A stretch of DNA of 64,000 nucleotides from Hydrogenobacter thermophilus TK-6 (GTDB lineage Bacteria; Aquificota; Aquificia; Aquificales; Aquificaceae), in the NCBI RefSeq assembly GCF_000010785.1, contig NC_013799.1:1674001-1738000 (forward strand). The letters are read 5' to 3'. The stretch's first letter is position 1, and the number at the start of each line of letters is the position of its first letter. Position numbers and translations under genes: made by a program. Of this stretch, positions 4,766 through 33,147 are shown one piece after another. The notes under the pieces are model-generated. The model was given only the letters and a program-made list of their open reading frames with translations. It was not told the origin of the DNA and did not search any database.

Positions 4766-4793
4766 TTGCAAATAATTTTCATTTACTTATAAT
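4766..4793 (+). promoter_or_regulatory. Peroxiredoxin promoter with Fur/PerR-like operator in the spacer
   Basis: A -35 element TTGCAA (4766-4771) and a -10 element TATAAT (4788-4793) are separated by 16 bp. Most of the spacer is an imperfect A/T-rich inverted repeat, AAATAATTTTCATTT (4770-4784), resembling Fur/PerR-type operators. A repressor bound there would block polymerase. The regulator is not in this window and the match is by eye. Confidence 0.5.
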
Positions 4794-4824: not shown

Positions 4825-5406
4825 ATGATGGTAGGAAAGAAAGTTCCCAACTTTGAGCTGGAGGTTTACGACCCCCAAAAGGGTGGCTTTGGTAAGGTTT
4901 CCTTGCAAGATATGCGAGGCAAGTGGGTGGTACTTTTCTTCTATCCGGCGGATTTTACCTTTGTGTGTCCCACGGAGCTTGCTGACCTTGCGGAAAAATA
5001 CCAAGAGCTGCAAGAGCTGGGTGTAGAAGTAATATCCGTCTCCACGGACACTAAGTACGCACATCTGGCATGGCACAGAAGCGAGAAGCTCCTTGAGAAG
5101 GTAAGGTTTCCCATGGGTGCTGACCCAACTGGCAGAGTCTCAAGACTCTTTGGTATTTATGACGAAGAAAACGGGCTTGCTCTTAGAGGCACTTTTATAA
5201 TAAATCCTGAGGGTGTCCTTGTGGGGTCTGAGGTAAACTTTTACAATGTGGGTAGAAATGCGGAGGAGCTACTAAGAAAAATGAAGGCAAATGTGTATCT
5301 TATGCATCATCCTGAGGAAGCTTGCCCTGCCAAGTGGACGGAGGGCAAGAAGACGCTAAAGCCTTCGGAGGAGCTGGTAGGCAAGGTCTACCAAGCACTC
5401 AGTTAG
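4825..5406 (+). CDS. 2-Cys peroxiredoxin (AhpC/TSA family)
   Basis: This is a thiol peroxidase that reduces H2O2 and organic hydroperoxides. The 193-residue protein carries the peroxidatic cysteine C48 in PADFTFVCPTE and a resolving cysteine near residue 167 in EACPAKW, so it is a typical 2-Cys enzyme. A strong AAGGAGG lies about 7 nt upstream; ATG 4825 or ATG 4828 could be used. The flavoprotein disulfide reductase gene starts 30 bp downstream, suggesting a peroxide-reducing pair. It is one of the few genes here with both a clear promoter and a real 5' leader. Confidence 0.93.
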   Translation: MMVGKKVPNFELEVYDPQKGGFGKVSLQDMRGKWVVLFFYPADFTFVCPTELADLAEKYQELQELGVEVISVSTDTKYAHLAWHRSEKLLEKVRFPMGADPTGRVSRLFGIYDEENGLALRGTFIINPEGVLVGSEVNFYNVGRNAEELLRKMKANVYLMHHPEEACPAKWTEGKKTLKPSEELVGKVYQALS

Positions 5407-5436
5407 GTATATATTTAAATTGCTGGAGGTTAAAGT

Positions 5437-6408
5437 ATGGAGTTAAGCCTGGATTTCAAGACGGACAAGGTTTACGATGTGGTAATAATCGGTGCCGGTC
5501 CTGCCGGCGCCTCTGCGGCCATATACACATCAAGGGCAGGGCTTTCAACACTGGTGCTTTACAGAGCTGAAGCGGATGGTGCCTTGGGAGTCACCCAGCA
5601 GATAGAAAACTATCCGGGTATTAGAGGACCAATATCTGGCTACGAGCTTCTAAAACTTATGAGGGAGCATGCCAAAGCCTTTGGTGCAGAGTTTGTAAGA
5701 GGGAAGGTGATAGCTACAGACCTTTTAAATGAGGTCAAAAAGGTATACACAATAGATGGCAGGGAGTTTAAAGCAAGAGCCATAATAATAGCTTCGGGCG
5801 CAATGGAAAGAACCAACAAATACAAAGGCGAAGAGGAGTTTCTTGGAAAAGGTGTATCTTACTGCGGTGTGTGTGATGCGGCGTTTTTCAAAAACAGACC
5901 CGTTGCAGTAATAGGTGAGGACGATTATGCTTTGGAAGAGACGGAGTTTATAGCTCGCTTTGCCAGCAAGATATATCTTGTGGTGCCTTCCAGCAGGATA
6001 AAGGCACCTCCAGAGATAATAGAGGAAGTGCAGTCAAAGGAGAAGGTCAGCATCCTACTACACCACAGAGTACTGGAGATAGTAGGAACTTCTCTGGTGG
6101 AAGGACTAAAAGTGCAAGATGTGAAAACGAAAGAGATCAAACTGCTTGAGGTGGATGGCGTTTTTATATTTCTTGGAGGAAACAAACCATCGGTGGACTT
6201 CCTCATGAACCAGGTAGAGATGACGGATGAGCATTGCATAGTGGTAAACGAGGAGATGATGACTTCTGTACCGGGTGTCTTTGCCGCAGGCGATGTGCTT
6301 TGCACCAACATAAAGCAGGCAGTTATTGCAGCAGCTGATGGGGTAAAGGCAGCTCTTGCGGTGGATAAGTACCTCAATAAAAAAGCCAAGATCACATCCC
6401 AGTGGTGA
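5437..6408 (+). CDS. Thioredoxin-reductase-like flavoprotein with altered NADPH site
   Basis: The 323-residue protein has the TrxR layout: an FAD Rossmann motif (VIIGAGPAGASAA, about 16-28), ENYPG, the redox pair C143/C146 in SYCGVCDAAFF, and the C-terminal GVFAAGDV FAD motif. The NADPH subdomain is abnormal. The GGGxSAxEE loop reads GEDDYALEE (160-168), and the HRRxxFRA phosphate-binding stretch reads VVPSSRIKA (182-190). It therefore probably does not bind NADPH in the usual way; ferredoxin-linked TrxR relatives show comparable losses. Its neighbour suggests that it reduces the peroxiredoxin directly or through a thioredoxin. Confidence 0.85.
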   Translation: MELSLDFKTDKVYDVVIIGAGPAGASAAIYTSRAGLSTLVLYRAEADGALGVTQQIENYPGIRGPISGYELLKLMREHAKAFGAEFVRGKVIATDLLNEVKKVYTIDGREFKARAIIIASGAMERTNKYKGEEEFLGKGVSYCGVCDAAFFKNRPVAVIGEDDYALEETEFIARFASKIYLVVPSSRIKAPPEIIEEVQSKEKVSILLHHRVLEIVGTSLVEGLKVQDVKTKEIKLLEVDGVFIFLGGNKPSVDFLMNQVEMTDEHCIVVNEEMMTSVPGVFAAGDVLCTNIKQAVIAAADGVKAALAVDKYLNKKAKITSQW

Positions 6409-32411: not shown

Positions 32412-32668
32412 GACTCTATTACCTTCCTTGCCTCTGCCTCATCCGGCACTCCCACAAAGGTTAGTTTACCATCTATTATGGTGGAAGGCACAGACCTGAC
32501 TATGAGCTTCTTTGCCCACATCTTACCCTCAGGCTGAGCCACATCAAGAACATCGTATTTAAATCCGTATTCAGCCTGAAGCTTGCGCCAGAGCATATCC
32601 GCATCAGGACAGGTAGCACACCACTGTGACACTAAAAGTATCACATGCTTGTCCTTTGCCCCCATCAT
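32408..32668 (-). CDS. Thioredoxin-fold protein with CATC motif
   Basis: The 86-residue protein has a short thioredoxin/glutaredoxin-like fold with active-site C17 and C20 (SQWCATCPDAD) and the cis-proline region RSVPSTIIDG near residue 60. The ATG at 32668 is preferred because it overlaps the lbpA stop (ATGA); the frame is open 27 nt further up. It lies between two sHdr-cluster genes, so a role in reducing or relaying disulfide or persulfide in this pathway is likely but unproven. Confidence 0.82.
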   Translation of the reverse strand: MMGAKDKHVILLVSQWCATCPDADMLWRKLQAEYGFKYDVLDVAQPEGKMWAKKLIVRSVPSTIIDGKLTFVGVPDEAEARKVIES

Positions 32669-33147
32669 GTACACCTCATACAAACTATGTCCCACTCATC
32701 TATGTACTTCTTCATCTCTTCAATAGCCTTCTGTCCCGTCACTAAGTCTTTCAAGTCTCTTTCCAAGTCAGAAGGCTTTAGCTTTGCCACCCAGCCCTCG
32801 CCATATGGGTCGTAATTTATTATATCAGGTTGTTCCAAAACCTTTTCATTTCTCTCTACCACCTCACCTTCTATAATTGCATTGATGGGGCCTGCCCACT
32901 TGCCACTCTCTAAGGATGCTACAGGCTTGCCCTTCTTTATGTATTTACCCGGCTCTTTTATTCTTGCATGCAGAAGTCTTCCAGCTCTTACCTGTCCAAC
33001 ATCCGTAAGGCCCATGGTAACTGTCCCGTCTTCGTTTATCTTAAACCAAGTCTGCGTTTCTATGTCGTAGTAAAGGTCAAGGGGTACAACGCAACCGTTG
33101 TACTCCCACTCGTTGGTGTGCTGGACAGCGCCATCGCTTAGTCCCAT
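32665..33147 (-). CDS. lbpA: Lipoate-binding protein LbpA (GcvH-like), copy 2
   Basis: The 160-residue GcvH-like protein has the predicted lipoyl lysine K83 in LESGKWAGPINAIIEGEV. A conserved NGC is near residue 19 and the protein ends in a CxxC tail (IVCMRCT, C156 and C159). It follows hdrB2 after 9 bp. It is only moderately similar to copy 1, so the two may interact with different partners of the pathway or act at different steps. Confidence 0.88.
   Translation of the reverse strand: MGLSDGAVQHTNEWEYNGCVVPLDLYYDIETQTWFKINEDGTVTMGLTDVGQVRAGRLLHARIKEPGKYIKKGKPVASLESGKWAGPINAIIEGEVVERNEKVLEQPDIINYDPYGEGWVAKLKPSDLERDLKDLVTGQKAIEEMKKYIDEWDIVCMRCT

Follow-up and report, generated by a model that had tools for sequence, protein, structure and literature searches.

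Our analysis places the gene at positions 5437 to 6408 (+ strand) of the window, a stretch of 64,000 nucleotides from the genome of Hydrogenobacter thermophilus TK-6, in all likelihood among the ferredoxin-dependent flavin thioredoxin reductases (FFTRs) of the kind found in Gloeobacter and Prochlorococcus, with ferredoxin as electron donor. FFTR is an already named family, and the kind of enzyme is therefore not new. The preliminary description had read the gene as a thioredoxin reductase (TrxR) that seems to have lost NADPH binding and that ferredoxin or another donor could drive. Family membership supports the first point, the closest solved relative being the Gloeobacter FFTR, whose structure was determined with its electron donor (6XTF); it also supports ferredoxin as the likely donor, as sequence, structure match and trees all point to the same family, and by homology this donor is very probably the right one.

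The gene, defined by its open reading frame, sequence search, alignment, structure match and trees, encodes 323 amino acids from an ATG start and has a GGAGG ribosome-binding site (5425 to 5429, +) 7 nt before it. The FAD and CxxC motifs described earlier as intact are both present in the sequence: (i) the FAD-binding GxGxxG, here GAGPAG at residues 19 to 24 (G19-G24; 5491 to 5508, +), and (ii) the redox-active CGVC with C143 and C146 (S-Y-C143-G-V-C146; 5863 to 5874, +). In the alignment, GEDDYALEE, from G160 onward (5914 to 5940, +), stands at the position of the pyrophosphate-binding GxGxxA, and VVPSSRIKA (5980 to 6006, +) at that of the 2'-phosphate-binding HRRxxxR. The replacement of both NADPH fingerprints claimed at the outset (GEDDYA for GxGxxA, VPSSRIK for HRRxxxR) recurs in all orthologues read. 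Sequence and structure alignment pair the C-terminal Trp323 (6403 to 6405, +) with the FAD-stacking W315 of the Gloeobacter enzyme. Additionally, the motifs G[RK]G and FF, described as thioredoxin-binding (PMC9025218, excerpt), are seen in the alignment as LGKGVSYC and AAFF.

Among 147 distinct sequences of the same type (44 from Aquificaceae, 6 from family f3, 69 named records from other phyla and 28 from the Anaerolineae class), none carries GxGxxA/G, none carries HRR and every one has the CxxC. The NADPH-type TrxRs in the same alignment, 36 of 36, have both NADPH fingerprints; each of the two sets, gathered by similarity, is of its own type by construction. For the 80 named loci, motifs were read row by row in 49, and the distinct-sequence counts cover all 80. 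Since both fingerprints are absent throughout while the CxxC is kept in all 147, the loss is neither a sequencing accident nor decay. The reductase nevertheless scores 360 bits with the NCBIfam model TIGR01292 ('thioredoxin-disulfide reductase'), over its cut-off of 343, so that automatic annotation gives no hint that the NADPH site is missing.

The tail Trp occurs in 144 of the 146 distinct FFTRs with a tail, and one more sequence ends at a contig edge. The remaining two have Tyr, in tails ending KDYK, and belong to Planctomycetota and Omnitrophota FFTRs (L116:5001-5945 and L170:5001-5942). Net charge of the C-terminal tail averages +2.8 in FFTRs (n=146) and -1.2 in NADPH-TrxRs (n=36); basic tails of this kind would fit an acidic ferredoxin.

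The best match among PDB sequences is the Gloeobacter violaceus FFTR (5J60/6XTF) at 251 bits, the next one reaching 222. The reductase shares 43% identity with this enzyme, 46% with the Prochlorococcus FFTR and 38% with the NADPH-TrxR of its own genome (L005), its nearest named relative being a protein of a Hydrogenobacter MAG at 91%. In a tree of 62 chosen rows, from which clostridial FFTRs, DvTRi and DFTR were left out, 44 FFTRs including those of Gloeobacter and Prochlorococcus form one side of a branch against the NADPH-TrxRs with support 100/99, and this support is the same with both fingerprints and the tail columns removed.

The comparison with ferredoxin-dependent flavin TrxR structures that had been proposed as a check points the same way. 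An AlphaFold model made from 36 sequences (pLDDT 87) keeps the overall domain fold and lies closest to 6XTF/5J60 (Z 37.4, rmsd 3.4-3.5 Å), whereas the best rows among NADPH-TrxRs reach Z 30.7 at an rmsd of about 8 Å and most others lie at 8-15 Å. The model is nearer to the former because FFTR structures share an open domain arrangement, and the reductase is accordingly modelled in the open, flavin-reducing arrangement. As 5J60 was probably seen by AlphaFold, this modelled conformation is not fully independent, and W323 itself is placed at low confidence (pLDDT <50 at residues 321-323 of the monomer model).

By analogy with the characterised homologue, the enzyme would work as a dimer of identical chains, in the open conformation in which the flavin is reduced, and Trp323 of each chain would cover the FAD of the other. 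In this regard, W315 of the Gloeobacter FFTR lies stacked against the FAD of the other protomer (PMC12796991, excerpt), and removal of the FFTR tail is reported to alter the shape barely, the Trp being described as determinant for catalysis (PMC8469568, excerpt). Two reduced ferredoxins would dock in turn and deliver one electron each to FAD; the tail would then swing off, the CGVC domain would rotate onto the flavin and the disulfide would be reduced. Candidate donors in H. thermophilus are the 4Fe-4S ferredoxins Fd1 and Fd2 and a 2Fe-2S protein encoded at G000:C1:201445-201663. The resulting CGVC dithiol would reduce a thioredoxin-fold protein, in H. thermophilus most likely thioredoxin and/or the protein disulfide oxidoreductase (PDO), which has two thioredoxin folds, and the reduced thioredoxin or PDO would recharge the neighbouring AhpC-type peroxiredoxin. 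The PDO of this genome (G000:C1:1223328) gives a match to the double-thioredoxin domain at the N-terminus of AhpF (1HYU, E 8e-8), and thus FFTR plus PDO resembles an AhpF in two parts, with ferredoxin presumably replacing NADH. The chain from ferredoxin through FFTR and thioredoxin or PDO to AhpC suggests a split, ferredoxin-driven AhpF. We give about an even chance to the PDO and AhpC steps, that is, to the acceptor (thioredoxin, PDO or both) and to a role in peroxide removal, because NADPH-TrxR/TrxA and an AhpF-like enzyme share the cell.

The neighbour described earlier as a 2-Cys peroxiredoxin is indeed one, of the AhpC type (C48 in FVCPTE, C167 in ACPAKW; open reading frame, profile and alignment), and is a probable operon partner. 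It occupies 4825 to 5406 on the same strand (+) and ends 30 bp upstream of the reductase gene; the gap contains the ribosome-binding site, and no terminator-like site was found between the two genes. A weak promoter-like site (10/12) precedes it at 4766 to 4793 (+), one of 4 such sites in the region against 2.9 expected. Of 39 distinct Aquificaceae loci, each with at least 600 bp of upstream sequence, 22 have FFTR immediately following the peroxiredoxin, and in the other 17 the two are not adjacent. In 70 loci from other phyla no peroxiredoxin was found beside FFTR, which makes the linkage family-specific.

Two further TrxR-family genes of the H. thermophilus genome bear on this linkage. The canonical paralogue (L005) has GGGDSA and HRRDQLRA and adjoins TrxA. 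The other one (L006:1435-2364; G000:C1:749589-750500) has GGGNSG and EISDRF, a site that we take to be AhpF-like, and is without the N-terminal domain; it is perhaps a third, NADH-dependent reductase and may compete as a partner of PDO and AhpC. With both enzymes at hand, the peroxiredoxin neighbour could be incidental, FFTR feeding thioredoxin or PDO generally and AhpC being recharged by L006 or by NADPH-TrxR/TrxA. This reading, to which we assign somewhat less than an even chance, is favoured by these paralogues, by the 17 Aquificaceae loci and the 70 from other phyla in which no peroxiredoxin was found next to FFTR, and by the preference of the T. maritima TR for NADH (PMC5627308, excerpt). 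It is opposed by the 30 bp spacing with its ribosome-binding site and without a terminator-like site, by the retention of the pair in 22 of 39 loci, and by some Aquificaceae and f3 genomes that are without any other TrxR-family enzyme. The NADPH-independent route of peroxide detoxification put forward in the preliminary description is plausible as a hypothesis; the peroxiredoxin neighbour is kept only in part of the Aquificaceae, and in H. thermophilus the route would operate beside NADPH-TrxR/TrxA and the AhpF-like reductase. H. thermophilus ferriperoxin is another peroxidase, fed via an NADPH-FNR system (PMC3317640, excerpt); the same paper documents gene disruption in strain TK-6.

As for the acceptor, NADPH-TrxR directly adjoins TrxA in all 11 loci of family f5 and in H. 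thermophilus itself, and TrxA adjoins no Aquificaceae FFTR locus. One Aquificaceae FFTR locus (L044) has a thioredoxin-like gene downstream, at 32% identity. In the window, positions 32474-32680 (-) give a weak thioredoxin-family match, a 95-residue frame with CATC, below the Pfam cut-off. PDO lies about 0.5-0.6 kb from FFTR, on the opposite strand, in three Aquificaceae loci (L070, L071 and L086). In the Anaerolineae, 15 of 30 FFTR loci have PDO on the same strand at a distance of up to about 1.5 kb, and in six of these it is the gene immediately upstream; among NADPH-TrxR loci of that class, the count is 1 of 20. The flanks span about 1.5 kb for most of the 30 loci and less for a few at contig ends. 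Fisher's test for 15 of 30 gives p = 0.0007, uncorrected for kinship, a value that overstates independence since the loci share ancestry. The PDO idea arose from L130 and L169, whose genomes recur among the 30 as L196 and L190; with both removed, PDO is near FFTR in 13 of 28 loci. An electron path from TrxR to PDO and on to Bcp peroxiredoxins has been described in Sulfolobus (PMC7465337, excerpt).

The same Chloroflexota loci hold other arrangements. In 6 of 30 (L190, L198, L199, L200, L202 and L204), the gene immediately preceding FFTR is GroES-like, and the open reading frame 4654-4995 of L169 appears to join a glutaredoxin-like start to a GroES-like end. Furthermore, 5 of the 30 Anaerolineae-class loci (L203, L206, L210, L211 and L212) carry FFTR and a canonical NADPH-TrxR as a tandem pair, with PDO close by.

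Across the 136 Aquificota genomes surveyed, with family counts made by hand from the match table, FFTR occurs in 58 of 64 Aquificaceae (f1) genomes at 69-100% identity, in a few as fragments only, and a relative at 58-62% identity is found in 6 genomes of family f3. Each of the 22 genomes of f5 has one TrxR match, and the 11 that were read are canonical NADPH-TrxRs. Family f2 gave no TrxR-family match at 1e-30. The catalytic subunit of the Fe-S ferredoxin:thioredoxin reductase (FTR) occurs in 36 Aquificota genomes, all of them f2 (e.g. L184-L187) and none with an FFTR match. Three families of the phylum hence appear to reduce thioredoxin in three ways, two of them via ferredoxin. Outside Aquificota, FTR and FFTR occur together in 10 of 30 genomes, so the two enzymes do not exclude each other as a rule, and the exclusion seen in Aquificota rests on few clades. 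Two genomes of family f4 (G112 and G113) encode a further kind of TrxR (L068:2048-3007 and L069:3871-4794) that keeps the CxxC, has GRGEIA and LLNKKMKLP at the NADPH fingerprints and no Trp tail; as it groups on the NADPH-TrxR side of the tree, its NADPH site seems to have been lost independently. The gene upstream of it in L069 reads by eye as an iron-sulfur subunit of the succinate dehydrogenase/fumarate reductase type.

FFTR is the sole full-length TrxR-family match in 7 of 8 genomes tested (G001, G002, G007, G063, G106, G107 and G111; the eighth is H. thermophilus TK-6), the next best reaching at most 71 bits, and thioredoxin is present in all 4 of these FFTR-only genomes searched for it. 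The PDO of G001 is identical across 229 residues to 2YWM/2AYT, presumably Aquifex aeolicus entries, and G001 is on this identity very probably Aquifex aeolicus. In this Aquifex aeolicus-like genome and some relatives, FFTR is the only TrxR-family enzyme that the searches found. Beyond Aquificota, FFTR records come from Nitrospirota, Chloroflexota, Cyanobacteria, Planctomycetota and Omnitrophota; in the Anaerolineae class, to which L130 belongs, about 30 of 298 genomes carry FFTR, set apart from NADPH-TrxRs by a drop in score between 402 and 356 bits.

Two alternatives concern the donor itself. The reductase might be independent of pyridine nucleotides and draw on another low-potential carrier, such as flavodoxin, a rubredoxin-like protein or F420. 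We regard this as unlikely: other TrxR-like enzymes without an NADPH site do include DvTRi and the T. acidophilum TrxR, whose donor is unknown, and the F420-using M. jannaschii DFTR (PMC5627308 and PMC7278568, excerpts), but tree and structure place the reductase with the ferredoxin-using Gloeobacter enzyme, DvTRi and DFTR being outside that tree. That a divergent site still accepts NADPH or NADH, as the TIGR01292 score and the conserved domain fold might suggest, is highly improbable and was ruled out, as both fingerprints are replaced in all 147 distinct relatives and the characterised homologue is reported to be unable to use NADPH (PMC12796991, excerpt).

Other family assignments were also discarded. 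A canonical NADPH-thioredoxin reductase (LMW-NTR) does not agree with GEDDYA and VPSSRIK in place of GxGxxA and HRRxxxR, although TIGR01292 is over its cut-off. AhpF is ruled out by the missing N-terminal domain, TIGR03140 being matched at 207-511 only (208 bits against a cut-off of 503), and a clostridial-type FFTR by the length of 323 aa, the tail and the low identity. TrxR-type ferredoxin:NADP+ reductases have no CxxC and have an NADP site; the reductase, with its CxxC and without NADP fingerprints, is not one of them. The definition of that group is given in part in PMC5627308 (excerpt).

Descriptions of ferredoxin-driven flavin TrxRs have so far come chiefly from certain cyanobacteria and clostridia, and an excerpt of one survey (PMC9025218) reports no FFTR from any other group that it analysed. 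In the open-licence literature searched, no paper names an FFTR or TrxR of this kind in Aquificota, Hydrogenobacter, Aquifex, Nitrospira or Chloroflexi. What is new here is the presence of the family in Aquificota, Nitrospirota and Chloroflexota, and its standing as the sole TrxR-family enzyme found in Aquifex-like genomes; a standard annotation model labels such FFTRs as ordinary TrxRs. This distribution links the thiol redox control of bacteria that do not photosynthesise directly to their ferredoxin pool, and in H. thermophilus CO2 fixation by the reverse TCA cycle draws on the same pool. As a wider proposal, which we consider possible though short of probable, Aquificota and several other non-photosynthetic phyla would run a ferredoxin-powered, unfused AhpF equivalent (FFTR to PDO to AhpC), and in Aquifex-like bacteria, whose genomes gave no match to NADPH-TrxR or FTR, ferredoxin and not NADPH would power everything that depends on thioredoxin and PDO, peroxide defence being only one part of it. 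The pathway of ferredoxin, FFTR, PDO or thioredoxin, and AhpC is simple and testable.

Among known systems, the closest are the FFTRs of Gloeobacter (5J60, 6XTF; first named DTR and later renamed, PMC9025218, excerpt) and Prochlorococcus. They share with the H. thermophilus enzyme the FAD motif, the CxxC, the thioredoxin-binding motifs, the absence of NADPH fingerprints, the C-terminal Trp, the open conformation (here that of a model) and the same clan. The Gloeobacter FFTR is reduced by ferredoxin and cannot use NADPH (PMC12796991, excerpt), whereas in H. thermophilus ferredoxin is the presumed donor, the host is a non-photosynthetic, hydrogen-oxidising thermophilic autotroph, an NADPH-TrxR coexists and an AhpC gene adjoins. 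A very negative potential of the FAD is a further trait by which FFTRs of the Gloeobacter type are defined. The clostridial FFTR (C. acetobutylicum 6GNA/6GNC/6GND) is likewise a ferredoxin-dependent TrxR without an NADPH site and of similar domain arrangement (Z 28.1, rmsd 4.0 for the model against 6GNC), but its chains have 288-294 aa, match the reductase at about 31% identity and 112-120 bits, and are reported to be without the C-terminal Trp tail (PMC8469568, excerpt). NADPH-TrxRs, such as E. coli TrxB and the paralogue L005, have the fold, the FAD site and the CxxC in common with the H. thermophilus FFTR, which differs from them in being without GxGxxA and HRRxxxR, in its Trp tail and in not adjoining TrxA. 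The Fe-S FTR, which was not found in a search of the H. thermophilus genome, has the same role between ferredoxin and thioredoxin, but is an unrelated Fe-S enzyme present in another family of the same phylum. Finally, the AhpF/AhpC system resembles the proposed one in its AhpC-type partner and in the likeness of FFTR plus PDO to an AhpF split in two; compared with AhpF, the H. thermophilus enzyme is unfused, has no NADH site and presumably takes its electrons from ferredoxin, with PDO encoded elsewhere in the genome.
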